Of a stretch of 30,651 bases of DNA, positions 2,283 to 27,971 are shown in pieces. The DNA is from a virus. The notes under the pieces are model-generated. The model was not told the DNA's origin. It saw nothing but the letters and a program-made list of their open reading frames with translations, and ran no database searches. The stretch spans positions 1 to 30,651 of the IMG/VR virus record IMGVR_UViG_3300046006_001667; one strand, written 5' to 3'. Within the stretch, counting starts at the first letter, position 1. Each line of letters begins with the position of its first letter. The position numbers and the translations under genes are program-made.

Positions 2283-5200
2283 TTAGCTACCTCCTATACC
2301 TAATCGTTGTTTAACATTGTAGTCTTCTATGGTTCCTTTAATCTTGTCTAAGACTACTTTACCAAACTCTTTTGCATCCATACCTCCATGTATGTCACCC
2401 ACATTTACGGTTACTCCACCACCCATAGTATTAGGTAAACTATTGTTACTTGTGGTAACACCCCCTGAGTTATAAGCTGCATTAGCTTGTGCTCCAGGCA
2501 TAGTTTGTAAAGCTTGAAGAGCTTGTGGAGTCATACCTGCTGGGCCGATACCTATTCCTGGCCCACCAACAGTATTACCCTTTTGAATTAGCCCTCCAAG
2601 AGAACCAGGAATTGATAGACTGGCTTTAGGTATACCAACTACATCTCCCAAAGTTTGTCTGGCTTCAGCGACACTCCTGGATTGCATTCCATACTTTTCA
2701 GTTAGTAACCTATAAGCTCTTGAATCATCCTTGGCTTGCATTGCAGCATCCTCGGATACCCTACCCTGTTCTAGTGCATTACCACTGGCAGCAAAAGCAT
2801 TACCTGCTTGTTGACTTTGAAGCTTTTCTATATCGAGACCATACTGTGCTCTTGCAAATTGTTGTTCAACAATGTCTACTGCATTTTGTCTTTGGTCTAT
2901 GACATTGGCCTTTCTATCAAGAGCATTAGTCTCTTTACTAATGAGTAGACCTTTCATCTGCATGGTTAGGTCGGTAAGAGTATTTGCATAGTCCTCTTCA
3001 ATTCTATCTAGCCCAAGTTGTGCTCTTTTAGTATTGATATCAGCCAGTTTTTGGTTAATACGTAACTGCTCTTCTTCCATCTGCAGCTTGTCCCGGTAAG
3101 CAGCTTCATACTCTGCCGGGTCAAACTTCTGAGCAAATTCAGATTCTACATAATTGCGGATAGAAGCTGCTGCTCCCTGAACAGGCCCCATACCTCCATA
3201 GAATAAGGCAGGTGCCCCTGCTGCAGCTCTCTGGCCCATCTGTGCTGTCTGTAGGTTAAGATTACCCTCAGCCAGATTCAGAGGATAGTCTTGACCAACC
3301 CTGGTTCGGGCCTGTTCATTCCTGAACATGTTTATCCCGATCTGTTGACGTTCATCAAGTAAAGACTGTGCCTGGAGACCTAATCGTTGACTATTTATAC
3401 CAAGTCGAGCATCCTGTAAAGCAATTCTTTCCAAGCCTGTTGCTTTCAGCTTAGTCAGATCAAGGGTTGTTTGTCGAGAAGCTATATCGATATTTACAGC
3501 TTCTAACTTTAACTGCTGAATCTTTCTTGGAGTATCCTCTGCTGCTCTTTTTCGTGATACACCCAATCTTTGTAAATCAATTTGTGTAGATTCCAGATCA
3601 AAAGCCTTAGCTCTATAGTCCTCTTTTATGTTTCTTTGTCTTTCCCGAAGCTGAGCAGCTAGATACTTTTTGAATCCGGGGTCATCAAGACCCTTGTCAT
3701 ACTGACTGGCTTTTTGGGTTTGTTCACTTTTATAGCTTATATACTCAGCAAGGCCTCTTTTACCCTGGCTAAGAGCTTTTAGAGCTTGACCACCATAGCC
3801 AATATCCATACGTTCCAGATCGATCTTAGTACCAATTTGACTCTTTATACCAGGAGCAGCAGCTCTTTGTAGTCTGGTTTTTTCATTCTCAGTCCTATTG
3901 GTAGTCCATTGCTCATAACCAATACCTTTGTTATCAGGATTTTTTTGGAACTGAGCATATTTTCTTTGAAGCTCTTTAGCATATGGAGTTTTTTCCCAGA
4001 CTTTTACTGCTGCATCCCATTCTTTTTGAGTAGAGTATGCCTCTCTCTGGGGGCCTCTCATTTTCTGGGCAGCTTCATAATCGTTATATGCCACAGGAAT
4101 ACTTCGTATGTTTGCCTCAACATTAAGCATACTGAGTTCTTTTTGTAGACCAAGTAACTTTTTACGAGCAGAAGGCCCCTGGCTCATGGAACCAGAGTAT
4201 AACTGAATTTGGCCCTGAAGAGCTGCTATTCTTTCAGCTCTTCGATCATTAGTAGTTTTGAAGTAAGCTTGGTCAGTAGTTTCACCTATTTTACGAGTTA
4301 TGCCACTTCTTTCTTTAAGAAGAGGAGCAATCTGTTTTTTAGCCCATTCTGCAGACATATATTCAGCACTACCTGGTGCCTGGTTTTTACCAGCTTCTAT
4401 GTCTTTTTGTAGTGGAGCTATTTTCTTGTTTATAGCCCTAAGATCAGATTTAAGATCAGCTACTTTTGCTCCTAATGGGAATCTATCAGCCATGTCAGCA
4501 AGTGCTGCTGCAGATGCTTTTGCCTGTTCTTCAGCTTTTTGCATGGATGAGATAAGAGGTTCAAGGATTCCTCCAGCAACAGCTCCAATACCACCACCAA
4601 CTGCAGTCCCTACTCCTGGGGCAACCATACTTCCGATCATTGCTCCAGTAGCACCCCACTTCATTGCTCCACCTGCAGACATTGCAGCATACTGACCAAG
4701 GGTTGTCCCCTTTTTCAGGTCTACCATACTAGCAGTCTTGCCAAGTTGGGCTACACCAGAACCTATACCTCCAAGAGCACCAATACCAGCACCCATTGCA
4801 GGTCGGTTACCACCAAGCATATACCCGAGAGCACCACCTTGAATACCAGAGCCTAAAAGAGTTCCAGTGGCACCCCACCCGGCCTCTTTAACCATCTGAC
4901 CTCCCATTACACCCATTACACCCATGGGAAGTCTATTCATCAACCCGGCACCTGTAGCCTGTAAATTTCTACTTACCTGACCACCCCATGGTAAATTTCT
5001 GGTTGGGATGGCTTCTCTTTGAGCTATCAGAGCTTGACGTTCACTTTGTATATCGCGTAATCGGCCTTCAGCAGCAGTTGCTCCTGCAGAATCACCAGTG
5101 CTTCTAAGCCATGGGATTCTTGCAGCAAGATTAGCTTCTTCTTGTGCTAATCCAGGAAGTGCTTTTTGTATAGACCTATAATCCATTCTTCCAGCAGCAT

Positions 5201-7510: not shown

Positions 7511-7533
7511 TTAAATTGCCTCCTAAATAGATT

Positions 7534-7565
7534 GAAGCCAGCATCCTGATAAGAATGCTGGCTTC
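7534..7565 (-). terminator. Strong hairpin between tail tube and chaperone genes
   Basis: An 11-bp perfect stem (GAAGCCAGCAT at 7534-7544 pairing with 7555-7565) encloses a 10-base loop. It lies just after the tail tube stop and just before the chaperone ribosome binding site. The minus-strand sequence after the stem is only moderately U-rich, so this may be a leaky terminator or an mRNA 3' end stabiliser that lowers downstream expression relative to the abundant tube protein. Confidence 0.6.
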
Positions 7566-7599
7566 ATTGTAACATGCTGCCCGGACAGAAAACAACTTA

Positions 7600-8199
7600 T
7601 TACTGTTCAATTAGGAACTGGTAATATTGTTCCCCTGCTGTTCTCGTAGTATCTGCAAGCAAACGGAACGATACAGCCATAAGGTTCCAATCAGATTCTC
7701 TGAATGGCATACTGAGCTGCCCGGATGGGGAAGCTTTGAAGCCTTCAAATATCTGCCTCTTGCCATTGGCTTTTACGTGAGTGAAACGTAAGCCAACAAA
7801 GGCATGAGTCGGAGTTCCACCGAACTTGAACAACGTTCCTGATAGAACCTGGGTCTTGCCCGTCTGGAGAGTCCCCAGTAGAGCAGTCTGAGTGCCATCA
7901 AGGAAAGAAGTCGTTGTGCCCGAAGTGATATTGCCCTGGCCCAGAGCCATTTTGAGTGTAGCAAGATTCAATTCAGCGAGGGTTGCAGCAACTGTAACAG
8001 ACTCACGAATGACTTCCTGCAAGATAGTGACCAGAGGACGACCAGCTTCAAAGTCTAAGACTTCTCTGTTGTGTTCAATGGTAACTTCACTTTTGATAGC
8101 TCCAACATCAGCATAAGCATCAAACACATCATTCGTGTAAGTGCCTAACTCAAGGTTGCCGATGCCCAGGGAGATATTGTCTTTATTCTGAATAGGCAT
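7600..8199 (-). CDS. Major tail tube protein
   Basis: A 199-residue protein with the composition of a phage tail tube subunit: beta-rich and Thr/Ser/Gly-rich, with few cysteines. It has typical features near the N-terminus (a Gly-Asn-Leu-Glu-Leu-Gly-Thr segment and EVTIEHNREVLDFEAGRP) and at the C-terminus (FRESDWNLMAVSFRLLAD), the last resembling the strand pattern of tube proteins that report on residue additions in each ring. It lies between the tail terminator and the chaperone pair, the conserved slot for this gene. It is preceded by the shared 46-bp element and followed by a strong hairpin, which suits a heavily expressed gene. A GGGAG site precedes ATG 8199. Confidence 0.85.
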   Translation of the reverse strand: MPIQNKDNISLGIGNLELGTYTNDVFDAYADVGAIKSEVTIEHNREVLDFEAGRPLVTILQEVIRESVTVAATLAELNLATLKMALGQGNITSGTTTSFLDGTQTALLGTLQTGKTQVLSGTLFKFGGTPTHAFVGLRFTHVKANGKRQIFEGFKASPSGQLSMPFRESDWNLMAVSFRLLADTTRTAGEQYYQFLIEQ

Positions 8200-8222: not shown

Positions 8223-8268
8223 TTTACTAATACTAGCTTAGCATAAAGGTAAGCCGTAGACCTGTCCT
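8223..8268 (-). promoter_or_regulatory. Copy B of a 46-bp element shared with the capsid gene leader
   Basis: On the minus strand this element starts with AGGACA (8268-8263) and ends with TAGTAAA (8229-8223). Between them are TAC-G, TAC and TAAGCT blocks at the same spacing as upstream of the capsid gene (13596-13641). By hand count about 29 of 46 positions match. The last base lies 23 nt before the tail tube start codon. Its place suggests a late promoter or a leader control site; it does not show a clear paired sigma70 -35 and -10. Confidence 0.6.
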
Positions 8269-8280
8269 ATGAAAAATATT

Positions 8281-8685
8281 TTATCCAAAGCAAACATCAA
8301 ATCCCTGTGAGGATTCCCATGTCTTAGTCTCTTTATCATAGCTTGGGGTTGGTGGGCCACCTTGTTCCTGGCATTTATACAATACCAGAGAACCATCTGA
8401 GAATGTATGAGTGTGGAGTAGTCTACTAATCCAGTCAGAAACAGATTGAGTCTGAACAAACTGTTTAGTATAGACAGATACATAAAGCACTCCACTGAAT
8501 ATACTAGCAAATACTTCTGCTTTATCTTTTTCAAAAGCAAGTGTTATACAGGGAAATCCGGGGTCTTTAACCTGTGGCAGATATTGTCGATATACTTGCT
8601 CATGGCTGAATCCATCAGTAGTGAACTGAGGGTCAGCAGCTATTGTATCTCTGATATGATCGATAAATGCTGTTGTATCAGCCAT
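8281..8685 (-). CDS. Putative tail terminator / tail completion protein
   Basis: A 134-residue protein placed just before the tail tube gene, the usual slot of the tail terminator that caps the tube end. The start chosen is ATG 8685 (MADTTAFIDHIRD), overlapping the upstream stop as TAATG and preceded by AAGGTGG; an in-frame GTG twelve bases earlier is possible but lies on that binding site. The pattern, an N-terminal helix, then strands such as PCITLAFEKDKAEVFASIFSGVLYVSV, and a helix WISRLLHTH, resembles small alpha/beta tail terminator proteins (gpU or gp17-like). No diagnostic motif exists for this family, so the role rests on gene order, size and predicted fold. Confidence 0.6.
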   Translation of the reverse strand: MADTTAFIDHIRDTIAADPQFTTDGFSHEQVYRQYLPQVKDPGFPCITLAFEKDKAEVFASIFSGVLYVSVYTKQFVQTQSVSDWISRLLHTHTFSDGSLVLYKCQEQGGPPTPSYDKETKTWESSQGFDVCFG

Positions 8686-9146
8686 TAGTTTTTCCACCTT
8701 AGCTTTATATTTTTAGATATTAAAGCACCAAGGACTGGTGTTATACTACGTTGTAGGTTCCACATAAGTAAGTTCTGCCATGGTCTTTTAATCATTCTGG
8801 CTGTGCCCGATTCAAGCAGCTCACCCAGAACATTATCATTTTCTACCCATAGTGTAAGTCTATAACCTGCCCTTTGTGGCCCAGTAATTCTAAATGATTT
8901 ATAGAAATCACCAGTCTGGTAGTTAATAATTCCTGGTTTTAATCCACCAGGAGGATGACTTTTATATGGATGTCCCATTTTTTTCAGAGCAAGTAAACTA
9001 TAATATTGGGTTCCAACAATCTGCTCTAAAGTGTTTTGGACTATAGGACGAACTTCAGCAAGACCAGCAATACTTGCGTCTGTAACAACTTTGTATATCA
9101 TTTTGAAGTCCTGGTTAGACGCCTTTTTTACATGCAAAAAGCTCAT
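8685..9146 (-). CDS. Putative head-tail joining / tail completion protein (HK97 gp10-like)
   Basis: A 153-residue basic protein in the connector cluster. It starts at ATG 9146, overlapping the upstream stop as ATGA, which suggests coupled translation. The sequence has an N-terminal helical region (ASIAGLAEVRPIVQNTLEQIV), a central segment with YQTGDFYKSFRITG, and a LLESGTARMIKRPW segment. The last, in the form LE.GT..m..RPf, recurs in HK97 gp10-type tail completion proteins, where it is a hallmark. That motif plus position between a head-tail stopper and a tail terminator supports the call. It likely helps join the head connector to the tail. Confidence 0.65.
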   Translation of the reverse strand: MSFLHVKKASNQDFKMIYKVVTDASIAGLAEVRPIVQNTLEQIVGTQYYSLLALKKMGHPYKSHPPGGLKPGIINYQTGDFYKSFRITGPQRAGYRLTLWVENDNVLGELLESGTARMIKRPWQNLLMWNLQRSITPVLGALISKNIKLRWKN

Positions 9147-9601
9147 ACTATGCTTGCTTTCATTCCTAATTGCCTATATGTAGGAGCACTCCGGGGAGGT
9201 CTTACAAATCTGGTCATCTGGCTATTCAGCTTACATCGGAAGACTCCACCCTGTTCTTCGGACTCAGATACCATAAAGACATCTCCCTGGATAATAACAT
9301 GGTCATCAGTCTTTATGCTAAGCCCATCAGGTAAGATCAACCAATCCCAGTTCTGACGGACTATACCTACTCCAAGCTCAAACCATCTATCTCGGGTCTG
9401 AAATCTAAATCCTGGAACATCCTCATCTACACGAACCCAAACTTCTACTTGTTCATCTGCATAGCCACTATGATCTACTATAGCAGGTCTCCATACTTCA
9501 ACAGAAACAACCATGCCGGGCATCATTTCTGCCATAGCATCAAGAACTTCAAGTAAACGTGCTCGAAAGTCAGCTTGTCTTGTTCCAGCATATTCTATCA
9601 T
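9143..9601 (-). CDS. Putative head-tail stopper protein
   Basis: A 152-residue protein between the adaptor-like gene and the gp10-like gene; both junctions are ATGA overlaps. It is rich in beta strands (VSVEVWRPAIVD, EVWVRVDEDVPG, HVIIQGDVFMVSESEEQGGVFRCKL), which suits the small beta-barrel stoppers that close the portal after packaging. The segment that reads as voltage to DNA entry in such proteins (KTDDHVIIQGDVFMV) resembles the 'gd.v.v.g..y.V' pattern common in stoppers. The family assignment is by fold pattern and order and is uncertain; a minor head protein is the alternative. Confidence 0.55.
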   Translation of the reverse strand: MIEYAGTRQADFRARLLEVLDAMAEMMPGMVVSVEVWRPAIVDHSGYADEQVEVWVRVDEDVPGFRFQTRDRWFELGVGIVRQNWDWLILPDGLSIKTDDHVIIQGDVFMVSESEEQGGVFRCKLNSQMTRFVRPPRSAPTYRQLGMKASIV

Positions 9602-10341
9602 GATCGTGCTACTGCTCCATGTGGCCCAGACTGATTATCCATACAGCTTTTGTTATACCCTTCAGCTTTACCTGCCCAGTATTTCATAGCAGCAGTTGAA
9701 TCAGCAAAGCCTAGTAAATCTATGCCAGCAGTAGTAGCATACTTATTAGCAATAGCTTCTGCAGCATAGTAGTATACCCAGTCCATAAGGTCTCCAACTT
9801 GGCTATCTGCAATCAATTCTAAAGTGGTTGGTGTTCCAAACTCTACAACTACCTTTATACTAGAATCTTGGGGGGTTGGGAATAGTCTTAGTACAGAACC
9901 TGCTGCTCCAACTGGCCCTATAATTTCATACCCTTGACTACCAAACTGGTCATGCCATGCATTGAGTTCCTGTCTTAGAATCATCATTTGGGACATCTGA
10001 TGAAAGTATCCACCAGTAAACAGTAGCACTTGGTTTACTGTATACCACCCTGGAGAGAATATATTTAGACTGGAAAAGTCTCCAGCAGGGTTCCAGTATA
10101 CTTCTTTGATAAATGAGGCATTAGCAGCAAATCCAGCTAAGACTGCATCATCAGGGTCAAAAATCTTATAGTCTTGTTGGTCTGCCACAGTATCGAATAT
10201 GGCATAGGTAGTTATGGGAGAGTAGTTGTTCATCTCTTCCAAGGCTGTATCCAATATTTCCTGCAGACCTGCCTGAATAAGTCTCATTGGAAAGTTTCTA
10301 CTGGTTAGTCTTTTAGTTATTGTATCAACTGTTACAGCCAT
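9598..10341 (-). CDS. Putative head-tail adaptor (connector) protein
   Basis: A 247-residue protein, with AGGAGC nine bases before ATG 10341. It follows the capsid gene, where the adaptor docking under the portal is usually encoded. The N-terminus is helical (ITKRLTSRNFPMRLIQAGLQEILDTAL), followed by a strand-rich middle and a helical C-terminal part with DWVYYYAAEAIANKY. This is the arrangement of long connector adaptors in phages with T4-like or crAss-like heads. It carries no enzyme motif. The call rests on gene order and overall pattern; other minor virion roles are possible. Confidence 0.55.
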   Translation of the reverse strand: MAVTVDTITKRLTSRNFPMRLIQAGLQEILDTALEEMNNYSPITTYAIFDTVADQQDYKIFDPDDAVLAGFAANASFIKEVYWNPAGDFSSLNIFSPGWYTVNQVLLFTGGYFHQMSQMMILRQELNAWHDQFGSQGYEIIGPVGAAGSVLRLFPTPQDSSIKVVVEFGTPTTLELIADSQVGDLMDWVYYYAAEAIANKYATTAGIDLLGFADSTAAMKYWAGKAEGYNKSCMDNQSGPHGAVARS

Positions 10342-10374
10342 TATAGTAGCTCCTGGTTATTAGTATCCCAATCA

Positions 10375-10584
10375 TTATACCATTTGGTCGGGTGTCTTAT
10401 CAGGTCTGTTTTCTACCCATAGAGATTGAAACTCTGGTGACCCTTCAAAGTGTACCGGTACATTTGATTCTTTAAGACTTTCAGCAAGTTTGTTCGGTAC
10501 TACACAATAGTTGTTAGGTTGGAGCACAACATCTGCTCCAAAGAATTGTGGACATTTACTTGGGTTGTATATATATGTATTCAT
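10375..10584 (-). CDS. Small hypothetical protein (69 aa)
   Basis: A 69-residue protein between the capsid terminator and the adaptor gene, starting at ATG 10584 (MNTYIYNPSKCPQFFGADVV). Unlike its neighbours, no Shine-Dalgarno sequence is visible. Instead, an extended -10 element (TGCTATACT, 10594-10602) lies nine bases before the ATG, so the transcript would have almost no leader. The composition (Asn, Pro, Cys, Val) and a VVLQPNNYCVVPNKLAESL segment suggest a small beta protein, possibly a head decoration or connector part. I do not recognise a family. Confidence 0.6.
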   Translation of the reverse strand: MNTYIYNPSKCPQFFGADVVLQPNNYCVVPNKLAESLKESNVPVHFEGSPEFQSLWVENRPDKTPDQMV

Positions 10585-10593
10585 AATAGAAAC

Positions 10594-10602
10594 AGTATAG
10601 CA
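10594..10602 (-). promoter_or_regulatory. Candidate extended -10 promoter
   Basis: The minus strand reads TGC TATACT, an extended -10 element. It lies directly after the capsid terminator U-tract and nine bases before the ATG of the 69-residue gene. No good -35 is seen, as expected for an extended -10 site. It could restart transcription of the connector genes after partial termination. Confidence 0.45.
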
Positions 10603-10604
10603 TG

Positions 10605-10640
10605 AAAAAGGCCCCCTGACTATTACATCAGAGGGCCTTT
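10605..10640 (-). terminator. Intrinsic terminator after the capsid gene
   Basis: On the minus strand, 20 bases after the capsid stop, AAAGGCCC and CTGA pair across a short loop with the matching arm and one mismatch (stem arms about 10607-10620 and 10627-10640). The stem is followed by a run of five T. A GC-rich stem plus U-run is the standard rho-independent form. Confidence 0.8.
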
Positions 10641-10660
10641 AGTGTAAAACCCGTTAGGGC

Positions 10661-13573
10661 TTATACAAGCTGTCCAACAGCAGAGGACACGGTGATTGTT
10701 CCGATTGCGTTAGGAGTAACGCATTTCTTTGCAAACCGGGTCATAATACCCTGCTTCTGATCGAATGTTGACGGGTCGGTCAACATAGGAGTGGTGAAGT
10801 CGGCATATGGTGCATAGATGTACGGAGTGTCATTCCACTCAGTTCCACGTCTGAAGCACATAACCTTGGAACCATTTGTAGTTCCAGATGCCCAGAAGTT
10901 GGTCTTCATGATTCTGTATCTGCTTCCGTTAGGAGCAGTCATAATCGGGAAGAAGGTAACTCCAGGATATGGGCCTTCCATTGAACCGTCACCATTGGCA
11001 CCACCACCGATGGAGAATGTGCCTCTCATGGACTTAGCCAGAGCAAGAGCAGCATCCATACCACAGATCAGGTGGGTCATAGCTCCGTTTCTCTGTCCGA
11101 ATATGATGTTGTCCATTTTCTGGATATAGTTCCAGATATAGGCATCCCACTCGGGCTGATTAACGAATCCACTTGCAGGGATTGTAGTTCCGAAAGTCAG
11201 AGCACCAGCAGTTGCCTGGAGAATCATGTCGTTCAGAACTTCAGCATTGACTTCAAGAGCAAGCTCTCTAGCCACACCACCCAGGAGTTCCTGAGCAGCA
11301 TCCAGACCATGGTATGCTCTCAAGTCCTGCATCTCTTCGATAGACCATGCAGCTCCGAGTTTCTTGGTCTTGGCTTCAACCAGCTCACTGGAGAGCTTCA
11401 TTCTGATAATCCTTGCAGCAAGACCTTCAGTGGCATTGTCAGCATAGGAAGTATTGAACGGAGAACTCGAAGTGTTCAGGTCAATACGAGACTCAAGACC
11501 TGCGCTTGGGTCTTCGGTTCGATACTGGTCAAGCCAGAAAATCTTACCGTTTGGTCTATCCATCGGCTGAATAGCTGCAATCTCACTCAGGATATACTGA
11601 GGGAAGACTCTGCGGATAAGTGGGAATATGAGATAGTTGCTCAGAGGAGCACCATCACCAGCAACCGTAGTTGCCCCAGTTGGCAGAGACTGATTTACAC
11701 TCTGAAGCAGGATGTCCTGAGCAAGCTCAGTCTTTCCCTGTTCCAGGGCCAGAAGACTACGTGCTGCTGCAGGGCCATTGAACTGACCTTCGCTGAGTCT
11801 AGCAGTATTCTGCAAGATCATTCGACAAGCAGCTCTTGGACTGGTCAAGTGAGAAGGAGTATTCCCAATAGGAGCACTCTGGCCTTCATACTTGTCAGGC
11901 AGATCAGCTACAAGTCTTTCGATCATCTCACCAACGGTCTGGGGTGCTCTTTCCTCAGCAGACTGTTTGGTGTAGAAAGTAGGTGAATAAGTTGAAGACT
12001 GCTCAACAACTTCTGTGGCTACAGCCGGGAATACCGACTGAAGACTAGGCAGGATTACATCAGATGCATCCATCAGTGACTGAATAGAATCAGCCTTATC
12101 GATAGCTGCCTGATAAGCCTTTAAGCCGACTTCACTGAGACCAGACTGCTCAAGCAAGCCCTTTTTGGTATCAGCGAGAGCAACTGTGGCTCTAACTGCT
12201 GCTGCTCGATCTTCTGCAGATTGAGTTTTATTTTCCACTGGATTGTCCTCTCCCTTAGCGACATTATCGCTTTGATATGTTACGGTTTTAACACCACTTC
12301 CGGTGCTTGCCCCTTGCCACACAGCATCGAAAGCTGTACAGACAAAGCCGTCTTGCATGACTTTACGTTTCTGGCCTCTCCAGTCACTCTGAGCAAACTG
12401 CCCATAACCCCTGGAAGACAGATCAACCTGAACCCCAGACTCAATAAGAGCTTGGAGATTTTTGCCATCAGGTTCAGTTGGGATAATTGTAGCATCAAAC
12501 CATACGTCTGAGTTCTGCATCCAGAACTTCTCAAACTTGATAGCTGCATCAACCAGACCCTGCTCTTCAGCCGGGTGCTCAAGCTTGCCAAGGAACTTAC
12601 CAGCAGATGCCTGTTCGTTCATTTTTGGCATGTTTGCTTGCCAGACAGTTGTCGGATAAACTTCACCCTTACTGTTGACAATATCACCCCTGGTAGCAAT
12701 ACCCTGGATTTTCATGAGTTTGCTTCCATCAGTCTTCTCATCGATAGACTGAACAGTGATATAACTCATGGATTGTTCTGCAAGGTCATGATTCCCGGAT
12801 TGGACGATAAACTCATCCTTGCCATAAAAATCAGCTTGCTTTGTGCCAGCAGCAGCTTTTGCCATCTCAGTGGCAACAACTCCTAAAGCTCCAACTCTTT
12901 GGGCTTCACCAACTGGGATGTCACTTGACTTCTCAGCTTTAGGGGCACTTGATTCTGCTTCAGTAGGTATCTCAGGAACGGATGCACCAGGAGATTCGGC
13001 ATCAGTCTTGGGAGTCCCAACTTTCGGGTTATCACTACTTTTGCCAACAGGTGTATCAGTGGTAATAACTGTTGCGCTGGTGCTACCATCTTGAGCAGTT
13101 ACTTCATCTTTTACTTCCACGATGTCTTCCTCCTTTGTTTGAATAGTTGGAGTTTCAGCTACCTTAGCAGACTGGTCTCCTTCTTCTTCCTCTGCATCCA
13201 TGCCAAGAGCAGTTGCTACGACCGTGACTGACATCGGAGTGCATTCTCCAGAAAACATTATCCCATCTGCTCCGACTGTATAGGTCATTGAGCAATACTC
13301 AAATTCCCCATTAGGGTAGGAGTCACAACAGAATACGATGGAATCAGCAAATACGCCAAGAATACCACTCCAGTAATACTTAGAGTTTTCTTCTTCACGT
13401 TTCCACTCATTGAAAGCATTACGAACCATCGAAAGATGCTCTTCCATTGAACCAGCTACATGGTAGTGGTCTTGGAGAACCAGAGCTTTATCTGCTACGC
13501 TTTGCTTTACAAATGCACGTAATGTGGTCGGGTCGAGAGACTGTAACTTAACTTTTGCTTGTACTTTAGACAT
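10661..13573 (-). CDS. Fused head protease-scaffold-major capsid protein
   Basis: A 970-residue polypeptide with three head functions. Residues 1-130 are an unknown domain, followed by an acidic Ser/Thr/Pro linker (about 130-240). Residues about 285-420 look like a T4 gp21-type prohead protease: catalytic His candidate in GKLEHP (His333) and Ser in DLSSRGYG (Ser386/387). Residues 440-600 are helical and acidic, as in scaffold or delta domains. From about 645 the sequence resembles gp23-type capsid proteins (FPLIRRVFPQYILSEIAAIQ, then PMDRPNGKIFW). LSE-G at 593-596 fits the gp21 cleavage rule (L/I)-x-E before G, which would release a 375-residue mature capsid protein; this is inference. Start ATG 13573 has AAGGAG eight bases upstream; a GTG nine bases earlier is less likely. 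Confidence 0.85.
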   Translation of the reverse strand: MSKVQAKVKLQSLDPTTLRAFVKQSVADKALVLQDHYHVAGSMEEHLSMVRNAFNEWKREEENSKYYWSGILGVFADSIVFCCDSYPNGEFEYCSMTYTVGADGIMFSGECTPMSVTVVATALGMDAEEEEGDQSAKVAETPTIQTKEEDIVEVKDEVTAQDGSTSATVITTDTPVGKSSDNPKVGTPKTDAESPGASVPEIPTEAESSAPKAEKSSDIPVGEAQRVGALGVVATEMAKAAAGTKQADFYGKDEFIVQSGNHDLAEQSMSYITVQSIDEKTDGSKLMKIQGIATRGDIVNSKGEVYPTTVWQANMPKMNEQASAGKFLGKLEHPAEEQGLVDAAIKFEKFWMQNSDVWFDATIIPTEPDGKNLQALIESGVQVDLSSRGYGQFAQSDWRGQKRKVMQDGFVCTAFDAVWQGASTGSGVKTVTYQSDNVAKGEDNPVENKTQSAEDRAAAVRATVALADTKKGLLEQSGLSEVGLKAYQAAIDKADSIQSLMDASDVILPSLQSVFPAVATEVVEQSSTYSPTFYTKQSAEERAPQTVGEMIERLVADLPDKYEGQSAPIGNTPSHLTSPRAACRMILQNTARLSEGQFNGPAAARSLLALEQGKTELAQDILLQSVNQSLPTGATTVAGDGAPLSNYLIFPLIRRVFPQYILSEIAAIQPMDRPNGKIFWLDQYRTEDPSAGLESRIDLNTSSSPFNTSYADNATEGLAARIIRMKLSSELVEAKTKKLGAAWSIEEMQDLRAYHGLDAAQELLGGVARELALEVNAEVLNDMILQATAGALTFGTTIPASGFVNQPEWDAYIWNYIQKMDNIIFGQRNGAMTHLICGMDAALALAKSMRGTFSIGGGANGDGSMEGPYPGVTFFPIMTAPNGSRYRIMKTNFWASGTTNGSKVMCFRRGTEWNDTPYIYAPYADFTTPMLTDPSTFDQKQGIMTRFAKKCVTPNAIGTITVSSAVGQLV

Positions 13574-13595
13574 CAGTCTCACTCCTTCGCATGTT

Positions 13596-13641
13596 TTTAC
13601 TATATTCAGCTTACCAAATGTGTATACGGTAATGGTGTCCT
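13596..13641 (-). promoter_or_regulatory. Copy A of the 46-bp element, upstream of the capsid gene
   Basis: On the minus strand the element runs from AGGACA (13641-13636) to TAGTAAA (13602-13596) and has the same block spacing as the copy before the tail tube gene (8223-8268). It ends 22 bases before the capsid ATG. TTGACA (13646-13641) overlaps the upstream edge and could act as a -35, but the tail tube copy lacks it. A late promoter recognised with a phage factor, or by a phage polymerase, would explain the long conserved block. Confidence 0.6.
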
Positions 13642-13674: not shown

Positions 13675-13712
13675 AAAAAAAAGAGGTCAGCTTTTTAGGC
13701 TAACCCCTCTTT
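13675..13712 (-). terminator. Intrinsic terminator after the methyltransferase gene
   Basis: On the minus strand a stem with AAAGAGG/CCTCTTT outer pairs (13680-13686 with 13706-13712) and an inner AGC/GCT pairing is followed by a run of eight T (13682-13675). It closes the replication-packaging operon just before the capsid leader, separating the two transcription units. Confidence 0.85.
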
Positions 13713-14797: not shown

Positions 14798-16535
14798 TAA
14801 GTTCTCCACTTTCAGTCATTTGATCGATAATGCTCTGTCTAATTTCCAGACGGTCTGCAGCATTAAATGGAGGTATGTCCTGACCTTCTTCACGGAGGTC
14901 ATTAGAGATATCATTGTATACTGCATACATGATATCTACCAGAGAATCTAAGCTAACACTCTGCTTTTTACCCACTTGTTCAGAGCTTCTGGCAGCTCTG
15001 GATTTATTCTGATTGCCACTTCCTGGAGAAGGAGCTTTAGGGACAATAGCTTCATTCTCAATAGTCTTAACTTTTGCATCCATTATCTTTTTAGCATCAG
15101 CACTGAGGAATGCATTCATCATATCCTGCTGTTCATGGTTAAGCTGCATGAATTTGTCTGCCAGGAGGTCTGCAGGAAGTGCTCCAAAGGCTTCAACGAA
15201 GTAGACTGCTGCCTGAGCATAAGTCAGTTCAATATTAGCATCCTCAACTCTATCCTGAGTAGATATAGGAGCTAACTCAATGGTATAGAGACCTTCTTCA
15301 GGGCCTATGCCATTAAGCATGAGTTCCAGGTCATACAAACGTTCAAGACCACTAACAAGGATGTCCTGAACACGCTGAAGGGTATATGCGAATGCAATAT
15401 CTGCATCGGACATCCCAGTTCCACTTACATGGGTTTTCTGAGCTGTCATTAACTGCAGATAACTAATAGGAACTTTCAGCCGACAAACTAACTTTTCCCT
15501 GTGGTAGATAACGTCATTCAGGTTACCTAACTGGGTATTGTTTGCTGTAAGCATATTAACTCCACCTTTTCCAGAACCATCGTCTGGGAGGTAGAAGTCT
15601 GTCTGAACATCCAGAGGGTTATCAGTATTCATTAAAGAGCCATCTGATGCCTGGAGTTTACGTTTGGTTATAGCATCCTTATAGCGTTTAATGGTTGACA
15701 TAATCTCATCCCGAGTCCATTCTGTCTTAATCGGGATTTTATGCACTATCTTATCGTAAGCTCGAACAAGACGGGCAACAGCCATTCCGTCTTCCATTTT
15801 AGATAGCCTTTGCCAGTTTCTTCTGGCAGATGCTAATGGTGCAACTGATAAAAATCCTTTTTTGGCACCATAGATAAATGGAACTATCTGCCATTCTTCA
15901 AGCTCTTTACCACCTTGGTTGGTTACATCTTTATCAGTTACAACCAACCATCCAGGAAGTTTATCTCCATGGTCATTAGTCTTAGGCCATATCTGATATG
16001 AAACAGTTTGCTTGAATCCCTTAATCATCATCAATTGTTTATCAATAATGACTTCTCTAAAGCAATTTCCATGAGGGAAAAACTCATGAATTATCTGCCA
16101 TATGGTATCCTCGATATCAATTCTGAGATTCAGGGCATCCAGAATTTTCTTTACGTCTTCTCTATCCGAGGACACAGCAAAAGCTGTTCGTTTACCTCGT
16201 TTTTTGAATGACTGCCGGGCATCTGCATTACCTATACATCTATCAGAAACAATATCGATAGCTGTAGAAACAAGCTCATCCTCTGCAATCATACGTTCAA
16301 TATCGAGGTATACACTTCTACGATCATTGAATATTCTCCACAGATCAGGCATGAGCACAGAGCTTCCAGTACTTGCATTGCTATCTGTGACTGTTTCTTT
16401 GTTACCAATCCAGGCAACAGGCTGAGTGCCTACCTCTAAGTCAAAAAGATTGGCTATAGATTTACCAATCTTTTTTGCCCAGGAGGGAGCTGGAGTTCGT
16501 CCTTTTCCATTGTCGGTGAAGTTAAATATCCCCAT
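14784..16535 (-). CDS. Portal protein, T4 gp20-like
   Basis: A 583-residue portal protein. The DRRSVYLDIERMIAEDELVS segment, followed by TAIDIVSD near residues 70-100, is the gp20-type N-terminal core. A later stretch (FYLPDDGSGKGGVNMLTANN, then LGNLNDVIYHREKLVCRLKV with PISYL) matches the crown/clip region of gp20-like portals, where a DDGSG-type loop precedes the helix of the tunnel. It forms the dodecameric vertex through which DNA is packaged, and binds the terminase. It follows the terminase gene by 17 bases. A Ser/Ala/Arg tail near residues 495-530 is low-complexity. Position between terminase and capsid agrees with the call. Confidence 0.9.
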   Translation of the reverse strand: MGIFNFTDNGKGRTPAPSWAKKIGKSIANLFDLEVGTQPVAWIGNKETVTDSNASTGSSVLMPDLWRIFNDRRSVYLDIERMIAEDELVSTAIDIVSDRCIGNADARQSFKKRGKRTAFAVSSDREDVKKILDALNLRIDIEDTIWQIIHEFFPHGNCFREVIIDKQLMMIKGFKQTVSYQIWPKTNDHGDKLPGWLVVTDKDVTNQGGKELEEWQIVPFIYGAKKGFLSVAPLASARRNWQRLSKMEDGMAVARLVRAYDKIVHKIPIKTEWTRDEIMSTIKRYKDAITKRKLQASDGSLMNTDNPLDVQTDFYLPDDGSGKGGVNMLTANNTQLGNLNDVIYHREKLVCRLKVPISYLQLMTAQKTHVSGTGMSDADIAFAYTLQRVQDILVSGLERLYDLELMLNGIGPEEGLYTIELAPISTQDRVEDANIELTYAQAAVYFVEAFGALPADLLADKFMQLNHEQQDMMNAFLSADAKKIMDAKVKTIENEAIVPKAPSPGSGNQNKSRAARSSEQVGKKQSVSLDSLVDIMYAVYNDISNDLREEGQDIPPFNAADRLEIRQSIIDQMTESGELNVIA

Positions 16536-21092: not shown

Positions 21093-22013
21093 TTAATCCT
21101 CGGTTTCTGTAGAATCTATATCCCCGGTCTTGGTCACTTTTATGGAGTAGACACAGGGCTTACAGTCAGTCTTATGGTCACACCATTTACAGGTATTGGC
21201 CCCGGCATTTGCATAGTAGAAACCATGCACCATACACTCAGCTATCTGTTGTATCTGTTTAGCCCACCACTCTGACTTATCCTTGGGGACTGTTTTTATT
21301 CGTATGGTCTGAATAACAGGTGTAGGGAACAGCCTTATAATATTATACGCGAAACCACCATACTTTAGGTCTGGGTATTTATGTTTAAGCTCTTCTTCCC
21401 ATGCCCATTGATAAACCATGGGCTGTATACCATATTGTGCTCTGGCATCAGCCCATGTATCATACGAGAACTTATGGTCAATAACTTCCACAAGTCCCGG
21501 AGTAGACTGGTCTAAAAGGTCGATTCTGCCTGTAAATCGAATACCACCTTTTATGAAGTCAAATGGCTCTTCAACAGAGACCGGGTTATGAAAAGGGTAA
21601 AGTTCCTTATAATAGAACCGAACAGCTTCAACCACTTTTATAGATTCAGCTTCAGTGAGGTCTTCCTTTTTGGCATTTTTCAATGCAAACTTCTCAGCTT
21701 TTGCCAGTGGGTAAAGCTCACCCTCTGTGTTAATTTTATAGTTTAGTAGACCTTCCAGAGTGTTATGATAGGCTGTTCCTCTCCGCATGGGAGTGCCACT
21801 GGGTTTACGGATACCATCCTCATAACTCCGTTTATACTGGTAAGGACAATCCAGAAACTTAGATATACGAGAATATCCAAGGTGAAACTCCTTACCATCT
21901 ACAGTCATTGAAAACTGGTTGCTAGGCAGCTTTAAGGCCGAGGTCTGAGACAGGTTGCCAAGTTCTTCCTGCGTCAATGCACCCGATGATTCGTTTGACG
22001 ATTTCGATGTCAT
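21093..22013 (-). CDS. PD-(D/E)XK exonuclease with Fe-S cluster (Cas4/AddB-like)
   Basis: A 306-residue RecB-family nuclease. It has a YSRISKFLDCPYQYK start (Cys56), the RRGTAYHNTLEGLL helix with His83, GRIDLLD (Asp165), VIDHKFS (Asp179, Lys181) and QPMVYQWAW (Gln197, Tyr201), the standard core in order. The C-terminal Cys275-x2-Cys278-x5-Cys284 with Cys56 fits the 4Fe-4S ligand set of Cas4 and AddB nucleases. No CRISPR genes are near, so a role in phage DNA recombination or end processing is likely. ATG 22013 has GGAG nine bases upstream, placing the first 30 residues inside the VRR-NUC gene; that tail is Ser/Thr-rich and has no motif. Confidence 0.88.
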   Translation of the reverse strand: MTSKSSNESSGALTQEELGNLSQTSALKLPSNQFSMTVDGKEFHLGYSRISKFLDCPYQYKRSYEDGIRKPSGTPMRRGTAYHNTLEGLLNYKINTEGELYPLAKAEKFALKNAKKEDLTEAESIKVVEAVRFYYKELYPFHNPVSVEEPFDFIKGGIRFTGRIDLLDQSTPGLVEVIDHKFSYDTWADARAQYGIQPMVYQWAWEEELKHKYPDLKYGGFAYNIIRLFPTPVIQTIRIKTVPKDKSEWWAKQIQQIAECMVHGFYYANAGANTCKWCDHKTDCKPCVYSIKVTKTGDIDSTETED

Positions 22014-22251
22014 ATACTATTTCTCCAATTCCTTCCGCTCGACGTACACGTCTTAGGAAGAGTCGTTGTAACATACGTAGTTCACCATAATGCTGTTTTA
22101 CTTCCAGAGCAATGTATTTACTCCGGTAACAGACCAGAATGTCAGCTATACCTTTTTCCTGGTTAGGATGACCAACAATGTTAATCATCGTACACTTTGG
22201 AAGGCCTTTCAGGTATGTAATGATAGTTTTTTGAATATATCCCTCACCCAT
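21922..22251 (-). CDS. VRR-NUC domain nuclease
   Basis: A single-domain nuclease of about 109 residues. The core GIADILVCYRSKYIALEVKQ gives the catalytic Asp, Glu and Lys (about Asp37, Glu50, Lys52), followed by a Gln in LRMLQRLFLRRV. These match the VRR-NUC family, small PD-(D/E)XK enzymes common in phages and thought to cut branched DNA such as Holliday junctions. The start is ATG 22251, with GGAG five bases upstream; ATG 22254 directly before it is possible. It overlaps the polymerase stop and, unusually, overlaps the next nuclease gene by 92 bases. It lies in the replication operon with polymerase and helicase. Confidence 0.88.
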   Translation of the reverse strand: MGEGYIQKTIITYLKGLPKCTMINIVGHPNQEKGIADILVCYRSKYIALEVKQHYGELRMLQRLFLRRVRRAEGIGEIVYDIEIVKRIIGCIDAGRTWQPVSDLGLKAA

Positions 22252-24949
22252 CATCTCTCCAATCTAAGGGAGTGCTTTTCCAGTCAACCTTTAAGTCTTT
22301 GCACTCTCCCAAGGAAGGCCCTGACTTTGCCTCTGCCAGGACAGGGATTGTAACATCGATACCCATATCATCTAAGATACTGGGATGAGACATTATTCGG
22401 AGAACCTTTTTAGCTACATCCTCCAAAACGTCATTTCTGACTTCCAGAAGAATAGAGTCATGGACTTCCCCAAAAAGATACGCTTGACCATGATACTGCT
22501 CAGAAACCATAAGATCAGTTTCCAGCATGGACATTAGCTTCCAGTCAGAACCAAAGCCCTGAACTGGAGTATTGATTGCCATTCGTATGGCTTCATTGTA
22601 TTTGCCCTTATGCTCCCTGCTGTTATCGGGGTTGAGAGTTATATTGGGTAAGTGTCTACGTCTACCGGATGGAGACTCCACATACCTCTTTTCCTTACAT
22701 TCTTCTTCTTGTTTTTTATACCAACCTGGCAATCCCACATGGTCATTGAAGAACTGATTACGAATATCAACACATTCACGCATTGTGAACTCAACTCCAT
22801 AGTCAACCAGAGCATACTGTTTGAAAGTCATAGCTGACATACCATATAGGAATCCAAAGTTTACAGCTTTGGCCTTTTGCCTAAGCTCTTTACGTTTCTT
22901 ATCATCGAGAGCATCCCATTCTTCCTGAGATAATCCGGTAACTCTCATAGCTCTCATAGAGTGAATATCCCATCCAAGATTATAAGCCTTGATGAATAGA
23001 GGGTCTTCTGATAACCACCCAGCTATACGAAGTTCAATCTGACTCAAGTCACATTCCAGAATACTCCAACCATCTCTGGCTTTGATACAGTTCCGAATAC
23101 CAAAGGTATAGAGTAGATTCTGTAGATTCATTCCAACTGCAGAGGAAGTCCCTTGACGTTTATTCTGTTGACCTTCTTTACCAGATGCTGTTCTTCCGGT
23201 AACTGTGCCAGTCAGCTTGTAACTGGTAGTGATTCTACCTCTGGTATCAGCAGCTACAATCATTGGTTCCACATATGTAGATAGGGCTTTTGCAAGGCCT
23301 CTCCACTCCAGAAGTAAGTCAACAAACTTATGACCTTTAAGGTGAATCAATGCATCCTCATTAGTTGCTGGTTGACCACTGGGAGTAAAGGCAATCTTTT
23401 TATCATTGCTCTGGGTCAAACCCATTACATCGAATAGCAGTTTACCCAACTTTGTGGGAGAAGCAAATAGACGGTCATCGTATTCACCTTTGATAAGTAG
23501 ACCAGCTTCCTCCATAGAGGTACCTAAACATTCTGTTTTGTAGCTCTCCAGGTAAGCATACATCTTATGTTCATTCTCTTCAATAAGAGCTTCAATGTCT
23601 AGTTTACAAGCTCTGGCCCGATCACCATTAACAGGCCATCCCCTTAACTCCATCTTTGTAAATAAAGCATCTGCTGGTCTGGTAATATGAGTATAAAGTC
23701 TCTTTAACCCTGGAGCTTTTTTCAAAGACTTTATATACTTACGATAGAGTAATAGAGTGGCTACTGTGTCCCTGGTAGCATATGGAATTAAGATATCCAG
23801 GTCTTTGGTCAACTTATCATTGATATCATAAGTTGGGAATCCAAGCTCTGTGGTAATAAGCCTTTTCAGCTTTAGCTCTCTATTTTCATCCAGAGCATGG
23901 GCAACATGCATAGTATCCATAAGAATATTTGGGGCCTTGATTGCTTTTCCAAATCTACGTTTACCCCACTGCCATAGCCATACCCGGTCAAACTTTCCAT
24001 TATGCCAGATACACCAGGACTCCAGTAGGATTTCCCGGATAATCTCAATAGCTTCTTCAAGGGTTTCCCCGTCACTCCAGAAGTTATGCTGTAGATGCTG
24101 TCTGGAGTAGTAGCAGTCCTCTTCAACATCAAGAGGAACAAATACACCACCAAAGTCAGTATCCCAGCAGAACTGAATACATCGAATGTTTTTATCAGGA
24201 GCATATGGATTCAGACCCTGGGTTTCAGTATCAACAGCTATTATGCCTCCAGCAGCTCTGATCTTTTTCTGCATCATTCGGAGACTCTTTAGTGTAGATG
24301 CAACTTTAACAGGAGGGTCAAACTTAATAGCTTCTGCATTTACATCAGTATCAACATCAGTATCATTGTCCATCCACTCTTTGAATCGAGTGAGATCAGC
24401 GTATAATTGCTCTCGGACTTGCACATTGAACTGTGCTGCAAGGTGGTGATCGGTAGCATATATGTAGGCACCTTTGCCCTGATCGAATACTCGATTAGAC
24501 TTTAGCTCTGCAAATGCTCCCGATTTACCTGTAACAGCAACATAGGTGTTTGCCCCGAGACATATAATATGATTCGGATTTACTGCTTTAATCTCTTCCT
24601 GGAGATACCCACCAGATAGAGGTTCACCTTTGGCAAGAGATTTACCAAACCCACAAAGCTTAGCATCAGTGGCTTTTGGTTTAACATCTTTAGAGGGTCG
24701 GACACACTTGATTGCATAGGTACAATAAACATCAAGACCCATACTGACAAGTTTTTCTTTGATTGCTGCAAGAAGCTTACCTGAAAAGGGTGCTCCCCAT
24801 AGATCATCCTGTATACTGGGTTGCTCAGCCACAATCATTACATCGTGGTGTTCAATGTTATCCAGGTCATCCATTAGGCAGACTGTTTTTGGTGCTTTAA
24901 TTGGGTTACCTATACCAAATTGACATAGGTTACATTCAGGATTTCTCAT
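22244..24949 (-). CDS. DNA polymerase, family A, with UDG-like N-terminal domain
   Basis: A 901-residue protein in three parts. Residues 1-190 resemble family 4 uracil-DNA glycosylases: Cys6-x2-Cys9, the AEQPSIQDDLWGAPFSG motif and Cys82-x16-Cys99, the 4Fe-4S ligand layout. Residues 235-410 form the 3'-5' exonuclease: DTET (Asp240, Glu242), HNGKFD (Asp321) and YATRD (Asp394). The polymerase has TGRTASG (584-590), motif A DLSQIELR (Asp634), O-helix Arg690-x3-Lys694-x3-Phe698-x3-Tyr702 and motif C VHDS (His830, Asp831). It is the replicative polymerase of the phage. AAGGGAG eight bases before ATG 24949 fixes the start. The catalytic activity of the glycosylase-like part is not certain. Confidence 0.93.
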   Translation of the reverse strand: MRNPECNLCQFGIGNPIKAPKTVCLMDDLDNIEHHDVMIVAEQPSIQDDLWGAPFSGKLLAAIKEKLVSMGLDVYCTYAIKCVRPSKDVKPKATDAKLCGFGKSLAKGEPLSGGYLQEEIKAVNPNHIICLGANTYVAVTGKSGAFAELKSNRVFDQGKGAYIYATDHHLAAQFNVQVREQLYADLTRFKEWMDNDTDVDTDVNAEAIKFDPPVKVASTLKSLRMMQKKIRAAGGIIAVDTETQGLNPYAPDKNIRCIQFCWDTDFGGVFVPLDVEEDCYYSRQHLQHNFWSDGETLEEAIEIIREILLESWCIWHNGKFDRVWLWQWGKRRFGKAIKAPNILMDTMHVAHALDENRELKLKRLITTELGFPTYDINDKLTKDLDILIPYATRDTVATLLLYRKYIKSLKKAPGLKRLYTHITRPADALFTKMELRGWPVNGDRARACKLDIEALIEENEHKMYAYLESYKTECLGTSMEEAGLLIKGEYDDRLFASPTKLGKLLFDVMGLTQSNDKKIAFTPSGQPATNEDALIHLKGHKFVDLLLEWRGLAKALSTYVEPMIVAADTRGRITTSYKLTGTVTGRTASGKEGQQNKRQGTSSAVGMNLQNLLYTFGIRNCIKARDGWSILECDLSQIELRIAGWLSEDPLFIKAYNLGWDIHSMRAMRVTGLSQEEWDALDDKKRKELRQKAKAVNFGFLYGMSAMTFKQYALVDYGVEFTMRECVDIRNQFFNDHVGLPGWYKKQEEECKEKRYVESPSGRRRHLPNITLNPDNSREHKGKYNEAIRMAINTPVQGFGSDWKLMSMLETDLMVSEQYHGQAYLFGEVHDSILLEVRNDVLEDVAKKVLRIMSHPSILDDMGIDVTIPVLAEAKSGPSLGECKDLKVDWKSTPLDWRDDG

Positions 24950-25029: not shown

Positions 25030-25490
25030 CTAGTCTTCATCATCGTCATCATCGATGTTGGGGTATTTACCCTTGGTTTTAGCCACTGGCTCAGGCTCTG
25101 GCTTAGCTTTAGCCTTAGCCTTTGGCTTGAGGTCTTCATCGTCCTCATCATCCTCAACAGGAGCTGGCTTGGCCTTTGCCTTAGCAACAGGCACATCGTC
25201 ATCATCCTCAACAGGAGCTGGCTTTGCCTTTGCTCTGGCTTTAGGAGCTGGCTCATCGTCATCCTCAACAGGAGCTGGCTTTGCCTTAGCTCTGGTCTTG
25301 GGTGCCGGGGTCTCATCATCGTCATCATCGACAGGAGCTGGTTTAGCCTTGGTTTTAGCCTTAGCTACTGGCTCATCGTCATCCTCTTCAGCAATGGCTC
25401 TGGTGCGCTTTGCAGCTTTAGCAGCAATAGCATCATCGTCATCCTCTGCAGGAGCAGCATTACCTGCTGGCTTCTTGTCTTCTTCGTCAA
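25030..25490 (-). repeat. Imperfect tandem coding repeats, about 57-63 bp per unit
   Basis: The 3' part of the SSB-like gene holds four clear imperfect units, each with an ACAGGAGCTGG core (read on the plus strand) near 25155, 25210, 25268 and 25330, followed by weaker ones. Each encodes KPAPV plus an acidic and a basic block. Unit spacing is a multiple of three, so changes in copy number would keep the frame. Confidence 0.75.
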
Positions 25491-26073
25491 GATACTTGTC
25501 TTCCGCAGAATCAAGGTCTTCAGAGCTGGAGTATTTCCGAACTCTAGCACGAACTATCTGTTGAAGTTCCTGGAGATATTCGATCTCTTCAGCTTCAAGC
25601 TCAGAGACTATTTCCATCTTGACCTTGGAGAACTTGTACTGTCCATCAGAGGACTGACCGGGTTCTGCAGTAAAACGAACCATTACATGGCTGTAGGAAT
25701 CCAGCTTCTGTTTTTCAACTGCTGCAAGGAAACCTTTCCAGTTCCAGAGTCCTGCTTTCGATATGTAGAGCAGTTCGGGCATGAACTTACCATCACGAAG
25801 GATAGCCAGTTCTCTTTTTTCCACTGTCTCATTCTTCTCAGCATTCTTGAAGAAAGCTTTGCGGAAGTAGACTACGACCCCGTAGAAAGTCTTTACAGAC
25901 TCAGTGTTTTCCGGGTCATCTGATGTAGGAGCAGGAAGAGTATATCTCTGCTTCTCTCTTTCGACTTTGATCTTTCCAAAGCGGAAATCCTCATCCTCAG
26001 ATATGATGGAAAACACTTGCTCCATTTTCTTTGCCGATGGGATACGTACTTTTGGTTCTGTTGCTTCGCTCAA
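25030..26073 (-). CDS. Putative ssDNA-binding protein with charged repeat tail
   Basis: A 347-residue protein. Residues 10-185 form a compact domain with strands such as TFYGVVVYFRKAFF and SHVMVRFTAEPG. It resembles phage single-stranded DNA-binding proteins in size and neighbours (polymerase, helicase), but no diagnostic motif is seen. Residues 200-347 are low-complexity, with alternating basic (AKAKAK) and acidic (EDDDD) blocks; KPAPV recurs at about 244, 265, 284 and 302. The tail ends in DDDDDED, like the acidic tips with which SSBs recruit partners. The start is TTG 26073 with GGAGG seven bases upstream. A sigma70-like promoter lies at 26123-26151. The SSB role is inference. Confidence 0.65.
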   Translation of the reverse strand: MSEATEPKVRIPSAKKMEQVFSIISEDEDFRFGKIKVEREKQRYTLPAPTSDDPENTESVKTFYGVVVYFRKAFFKNAEKNETVEKRELAILRDGKFMPELLYISKAGLWNWKGFLAAVEKQKLDSYSHVMVRFTAEPGQSSDGQYKFSKVKMEIVSELEAEEIEYLQELQQIVRARVRKYSSSEDLDSAEDKYLDEEDKKPAGNAAPAEDDDDAIAAKAAKRTRAIAEEDDDEPVAKAKTKAKPAPVDDDDDETPAPKTRAKAKPAPVEDDDEPAPKARAKAKPAPVEDDDDVPVAKAKAKPAPVEDDEDDEDLKPKAKAKAKPEPEPVAKTKGKYPNIDDDDDED

Positions 26074-26122: not shown

Positions 26123-26151
26123 GTATACCTCTTGTGGAAGGTAGTTTCAAC
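26123..26151 (-). promoter_or_regulatory. Sigma70-type promoter of the SSB-polymerase operon
   Basis: The minus strand has TTGAAA (26151-26146), a 17-base spacer and TATACT (26128-26123). This is near consensus. The leader to TTG 26073 is about 43 bases and includes GGAGG. A 16-bp palindrome directly abuts the -35. Confidence 0.75.
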
Positions 26152-26167
26152 TGGTACAATTACCAGT
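26152..26167. promoter_or_regulatory. Palindromic operator candidate, copy 1
   Basis: CTGGTA-CAAT-TACCAG, a perfect 6+4+6 inverted repeat, lies with no gap upstream of the -35 at 26146-26151. A copy with one changed base lies at 27956-27971 in the same relation to another promoter. It also overlaps the stop codon region of the 26160 gene. On the plus strand a short T-run follows, so an incidental terminator reading is possible, but the paired placement argues for protein binding. Confidence 0.65.
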
Positions 26168-27955: not shown

Positions 27956-27971
27956 CTGGTACAAATACCAG
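27956..27971. promoter_or_regulatory. Palindromic operator candidate, copy 2
   Basis: CTGGTA-CAAA-TACCAG differs from copy 1 (26152-26167) in one central base. It lies one base upstream of the helicase -35 and 15 bases upstream of the plus-strand -35 of the primase promoter, so it could control both divergent genes. Confidence 0.65.

Follow-up and report, generated by a model that had tools for sequence, protein, structure and literature searches.

The shared element and its two genes

Why do the capsid and tail tube genes of this phage carry a similar block of 46 bases just upstream of their start codons? The window (the whole stretch of 30,651 nucleotides analysed) contains the block twice on the minus strand. 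A sequence-only reading had proposed that it was a late promoter needing a phage factor, a promoter for a phage RNA polymerase, or a leader control site shared by the two genes. Its description of the block is accurate. A gap-free alignment of minus-strand segments 13641-13596 and 8268-8223 has 29 identities in 46 positions, which agrees with the first hand count. Both copies begin with AGGACA and end with TAGTAAA, with TAC, TAC and TAAGCT in register, and the end of the element lies 22 bases before the start codon for copy A (ATG 13573) and 23 bases before it for copy B (ATG 8199). The genes that follow do encode virion proteins, capsid (PHROG 207 and 138) and tube (PHROG 2175 and 807). Capsid and tail tube are the virion proteins of highest copy number. 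The features of the region are as follows.

13596..13641, minus strand: element copy A, 5' of the capsid gene (alignment and matrix)
8223..8268, minus strand: element copy B, 5' of the tail tube gene (alignment and matrix)
10661..13573, minus strand: head protease / major capsid fusion gene, 970 aa (PHROG 207 and 138)
7600..8199, minus strand: major tail (tube) protein gene, 199 aa (PHROG 2175, 9e-9; PHROG 807, 7e-4, weak)
13675..13710, minus strand: terminator-like hairpin and T run, upstream of copy A (−15.5 kcal/mol)
10605..10639, minus strand: terminator-like hairpin, 3' of the capsid gene (−23.0 kcal/mol)
10594..10622, minus strand: ordinary promoter-like site TAGTCA-17-TATACT with TG, beyond the capsid terminator; contrast class
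about 7525..7566, minus strand: 15-pair hairpin, 3' of the tail tube gene (−24.7 kcal/mol)

The capsid gene at 10661-13573 fuses a head maturation protease and a T4-type major capsid protein in one 970-aa frame, and the capsid is likewise one long reading frame in the related phages G003, L045 and G004.

The match between the copies exceeds chance. The best ungapped 46-base match between the two 120-base upstream regions is 31, in a frame shifted a few bases upstream. Dinucleotide shuffles of both regions (n = 2000) gave a mean of 22.8, a standard deviation of 1.3 and a maximum of 28, and none of the 2000 reached the observed match. When 56 upstream regions were compared, the capsid/tube pair ranked first of 1540 pairs. 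A score of 29 is by itself not unique among these pairs, and ordinary promoters are common to two of the next pairs.

The window itself is only a fragment. This phage is also represented by two sister contigs (99.99% identity across 20-25 kb), and joining the window to a sister contig gave a sequence of 53,209 bases, extending 22.6 kb beyond the window. A matrix scan of this sequence returned the two sites at 55.6 and 53.9 bits, with the next best at 10.3. A third copy is thus absent from the additional 22.6 kb as it is from the window, and given only two high-scoring sites the claim that the capsid and tail tube genes, and no others, follow the element stands for all 53,209 bases at hand.

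A terminator-like hairpin is found 5' of the element in three phages (the window phage, G003 and L045), and in two of them, the window phage and G003, another follows the capsid gene. The order in G003 (hairpin, element, capsid gene, hairpin) matches that of the window phage. The hairpin 3' of the tube gene may serve as a terminator or an RNA stabiliser. The TGCTATACT promoter-like site comes after the terminator-like hairpin at 10639-10605. Other late genes of the cluster, including the tape-measure gene, carry TGnTATAAT-type sites. The element would therefore constitute a separate promoter class within the late cluster, serving the two products of highest copy number.

Conservation and anatomy of the element

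A matrix scan of the phage and its relatives had been suggested as a check. It added a capsid-gene copy in each of two relatives, but no further late-gene copies in this phage. The matrix, built from the two window copies only, found one extra site each in G003 and L045, before the capsid gene. The G003 site (L010 9610-9655) lies 21 bases before the capsid start (p 6e-5 over 150 bases tested) and that of L045 lies 25 bases before it (p 8e-4 over 150 bases tested). The capsid proteins are 52-55% (G003) and 52-53% (L045) identical to that of the window phage. This gives an alignment of four independent sites, three before capsid genes and one before the tail tube gene, and leave-one-out matrices made from the other three sites gave per-position p values of 1.6e-10 to 9e-8 for the four. 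Invariant columns number 18 of 46 inside the element, while the flanks have 3 of 40 (upstream) and 1 of 30 (downstream). The invariant bases are GGACA, TA, T, T, TG, TAA, T, AG and A, and the distance from the element to the start codon is nearly constant at 21-25 bases. In L009, a contig closely related to G003, TAAACT is changed to TAGACT together with one spacer base; TG, TA and the final T are kept, and within the hexamer only the interior differs.

The conservation has clear boundaries. G004 (capsid about 50% and tube 61% identical) has no significant matrix match at its capsid or tube gene. GGACA is present upstream of both, and with the matrix match not significant these regions were not counted. 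By its capsid G004 is an equally close relative. Not every relative, then, requires the element. A relaxed match 5' of the G004 portal gene was judged to be at chance level. The distant relatives G013, G014 and G019 (capsid 35-39% identity) gave no match to the element. An exact-pattern scan with 16 fixed bases through 2.9 million viral contigs returned 61 contigs, among which only this phage, G003 and L045 have the site just before a capsid or tube gene start. The others lie mostly within coding sequence or have no fitting gene start 3', and look like chance. GenBank phage records contained no DNA relatives and no relatives of the tube protein.

The conserved bases fall into the following parts.

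13636..13640, minus strand: GGACA box, copy A (invariant in four sites; −39 to −35 if +1 is 13601)
8263..8267, minus strand: GGACA box, copy B (four-site alignment)
13608..13616, minus strand: extended −10, copy A, TGGTAAGCT (TG, T−12, A−11 and T−7 kept in all sites)
8235..8243, minus strand: extended −10, copy B, TGCTAAGCT (four-site alignment)
13600..13601, minus strand: predicted transcript start region, copy A, AG at +1/+2 (invariant AG 6 bases past the −10)
8227..8228, minus strand: predicted transcript start region, copy B, AG (four-site alignment)

Taking the invariant AG as +1 places TGnTAA..T at −15 to −7, GGACA at −39 to −35 and TA at −30/−29. The gap between GGACA and the TAA hexamer is 22 bases in all four sites; the spacing never varies. 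In every site the second block can be recognised as a −10 that carries TGn and keeps its place ahead of the gene, reading TGGTAAACT, TGGTAAAGT or TGGTAGACT in the relatives. T−12, A−11 and T−7 are the bases that sigma70-type factors need most. The hexamers 17 bases from the −10 are ACCATT, AGGTCT, ACCCCT and ACCTAT, none of them TTGACA-like, and the earlier statement that the block is more than a sigma70 pair is right insofar as no −35 hexamer lies 16-18 bases from the −10.

Two other arrangements within copy A were rejected. A TTGACA overlapping its start could be taken for a normal −35, but it has no −10 at 16-18 bases and is absent from copy B. The pair TATACA-16-TATAGT is not kept in the other copies and leaves the conserved TGGTAA unexplained. 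Separately, an extra extended −10, a possible second promoter, lies between the terminator and the element at L010 9582-9590 (TGGTATAAT) and at L045 3193-3201 (TGGTATACT); it is absent in the window phage.

Candidate functions of the element

The interpretation offered at the outset is supported in part: of its three proposals, a late promoter that depends on an additional factor fits best. Sequence, spacing and position are kept in two relatives. The late-promoter reading draws on that conservation and on a sigma70-type extended −10 correctly placed for a start at the AG; promoter activity, the start site, the activator and lateness we infer. On balance, and judging from the sequence, we think that the 46-bp element is probably a dedicated late promoter, used by a host sigma70-type polymerase with a putative activator bound at GGACA. 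Host RNA polymerase with its main sigma factor would recognise the weak extended −10 and start transcription at the conserved AG, six bases past the −10, giving a predicted leader of 27-31 bases that contains a purine-rich ribosome-binding site. GGACA at −39 to −35 would be bound by a protein, probably one that the phage encodes and produces in the course of infection, which would recruit the polymerase and perhaps also contact the TA at −30/−29. We propose such a protein because there is no −35 at the normal distance and the interior of the −10 is poor. A bipartite site of fixed spacing that combines a poor extended −10 with a strongly conserved upstream box and lacks a −35 is what would be expected of an activator-recruited promoter. 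Together with the terminators around the capsid gene, the element would provide the two most abundant virion proteins with late transcripts of their own. Several points count against parts of this. The independent sites number just four, with a single one at a tube gene, and G004 has no significant match at either gene. An extended −10 can work without an activator, and in G003 and L045 the upstream TGGTATAAT / TGGTATACT site could be the real promoter.

No gene for an RNA polymerase or sigma factor had been seen in the window, and none was found in the 53 kb or in two relatives, with genome ends missing and the polymerase family search run without a positive control. PF00940 had no match in any record (no positive control, genome incomplete), and polymerase families, PHROG included, had none among the phage proteins scanned, the genome ends being missing. 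The PF04542 sigma family was absent from the incomplete genome of the phage and from its relatives, with controls positive in 10 of 14. Foldseek gave local matches to sigma region 4 and to PhyR, over 41-60 residues, for a three-helix segment of a conserved 238-aa protein whose gene lies outside the window (G002 21645-22361). Given E-values >1 and a low-confidence model, we treat this protein as a lead only. Two conserved proteins of no assigned function were considered as the activator; their structure models are of low confidence, too weak to name one. Searching the literature for GGACA in connection with phage promoters gave no match.

An alternative sigma factor, of phage or host origin, might read GGACA and TGnTAA..T as its own pair across the 22-base gap, with no separate activator. 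The hexamer starts with TAA and not TAT in all four main sites, the entire bipartite site is conserved, and the 238-aa protein has its local likeness to sigma region 4 and PhyR at E-values >1. We nevertheless consider this unlikely, as PF04542 has no match in phage or relatives with controls positive, the gap is ~5 bases longer than sigma70-type spacing, and the kept TG, T−12, A−11 and T−7 are the bases of an ordinary sigma70 site. It is similarly doubtful that GGACA-N22-TGnTAA..T is read by a new phage sigma factor, or an activator resembling one, that has no sequence relationship to those known and serves the genes of the two most abundant virion proteins alone, leaving the other late genes to ordinary promoters. 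The kept T−12, A−11 and T−7, with TGn, occur in every site and could also belong to a strong ordinary extended −10 promoter, conserved in its upstream and start-region bases and needing no extra factor; T-rich DNA just upstream could serve as an UP element. Yet the hexamer matches the consensus at only 3-4 of 6 positions, better TGnTATAAT sites stand before other genes of the same phage, and sigma70 by itself has no known use at −39 for GGACA, the best conserved block. Such a promoter is hardly a probable explanation.

Conserved bases lying in a 5' leader transcribed from an upstream start might instead act on translation, stability or protein autoregulation. The TGGTATAAT / TGGTATACT sites, 20 and 9 bases before GGACA in G003 and L045, would allow this, as would the near-constant 21-25 bases to the start codon. 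However, the predicted folds of the four leaders disagree, and none is stable or shared. Three of the four fold no better than shuffles (z of +1.9, 0.0 and +0.6; L045 is at −2.0), the window phage has no good upstream promoter, and a search of Rfam gave no match. With no stable or shared RNA fold the earlier suggestion of a shared leader control site is not favoured, and we regard it as quite improbable. Least credible, to the point of being very improbable, is a promoter read by a single-subunit RNA polymerase of the phage, whose gene would lie in the missing genome sequence. The genome ends are indeed missing and conservation extends to about +4. Against this, neither PF00940 (no positive control) nor the polymerase families matched among the phage proteins scanned, and the site consists of two blocks 22 bases apart, the second an extended −10, and not of a single ~20-base block. 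That proposal too is not favoured, given the rigid spacing typical of a sigma factor or activator, the extended −10 and the lack of a polymerase or sigma match in the 53 kb and two relatives scanned.

Relation to known phage promoters

T4 late promoters have TATAAATA at −10, use gp55 and have no upstream box. Like them the element precedes late virion genes (its lateness being predicted), but it has TGnTAAGCT plus an upstream box, and no sigma match was found in the incomplete genome. T7-type promoters consist of one ~20-base block and go with a phage polymerase gene. They too precede abundant structural genes, whereas the element lacks the single block, and a search for the polymerase gene, with no positive control and in an incomplete genome, found none.

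In T4 middle promoters a MotA box takes the place of the −35 and the host −10 remains, preceded by TGn in roughly half of them; the box, (a/t)(a/t)(a/t)TGCTTtA, is centred at −30, 12 +/- 1 bases from a near-consensus −10 (PMC2988021). The element similarly has an upstream box in place of a −35 and keeps a −10. The centre of its GGACA, however, lies at −37, and 22 bases separate the box from a poor −10; there is no TGCTT box at −30, and no match to MotA or AsiA was seen. At Mu Pm, Mor binds a 16-bp dyad centred at −43.5 that replaces the −35, with the −10 kept and host sigma70 polymerase used (PMC4390567). The proposed activator site would likewise replace the −35 of a host sigma70 promoter that keeps its −10, but the four element sites share no dyad, and none has a 16-bp dyad at −43.5.

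A second shared promoter class in these phages has the geometry of the Mor site. It comprises a 16-bp dyad, CTGGTAATTGTACCAG or close to it, followed by a −10 of TATACT, TACAAT or TATAAT. Sites lie at 26151-26166 and 27956-27971 (both minus strand) in the window, at 11042 and 15400 in the G002 contig, and at 15413 in the G003 contig. The dyad ends 23 bases (24 once) before the −10, which places its centre at −43.5. Among the genes preceded by this class are a helicase gene and a conserved gene of 347 aa (25030-26073); the latter contains an imperfect tandem repeat at 25145-25386. In L045 the −10 region of the element (3235-3250, CTGGTAAAGTATCAG) is a near dyad resembling the CTGGTA-N4-TACCAG sites of this class. 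To judge by this likeness, which the window copies lack, one regulator might bind both the L045 element and the dyad class. Elsewhere in the window phage, contig L034 has 292 bases without a called gene before the dUTPase region (11089-11380) and a tRNA-Gln gene (16381-16455).

The element illustrates how, in an uncultured phage, the supply of the two most abundant particle proteins could be matched, by a special promoter for each gene plus terminators isolating the capsid gene rather than by one long late operon. Should the activator be identified, it and the GGACA box would make a compact, testable control module. By its sequence and geometry the element belongs to neither the T4 middle nor the Mu Pm class. 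Activator-dependent control of extended −10 promoters is a known kind of phage regulation, of which the element is most likely a new example.
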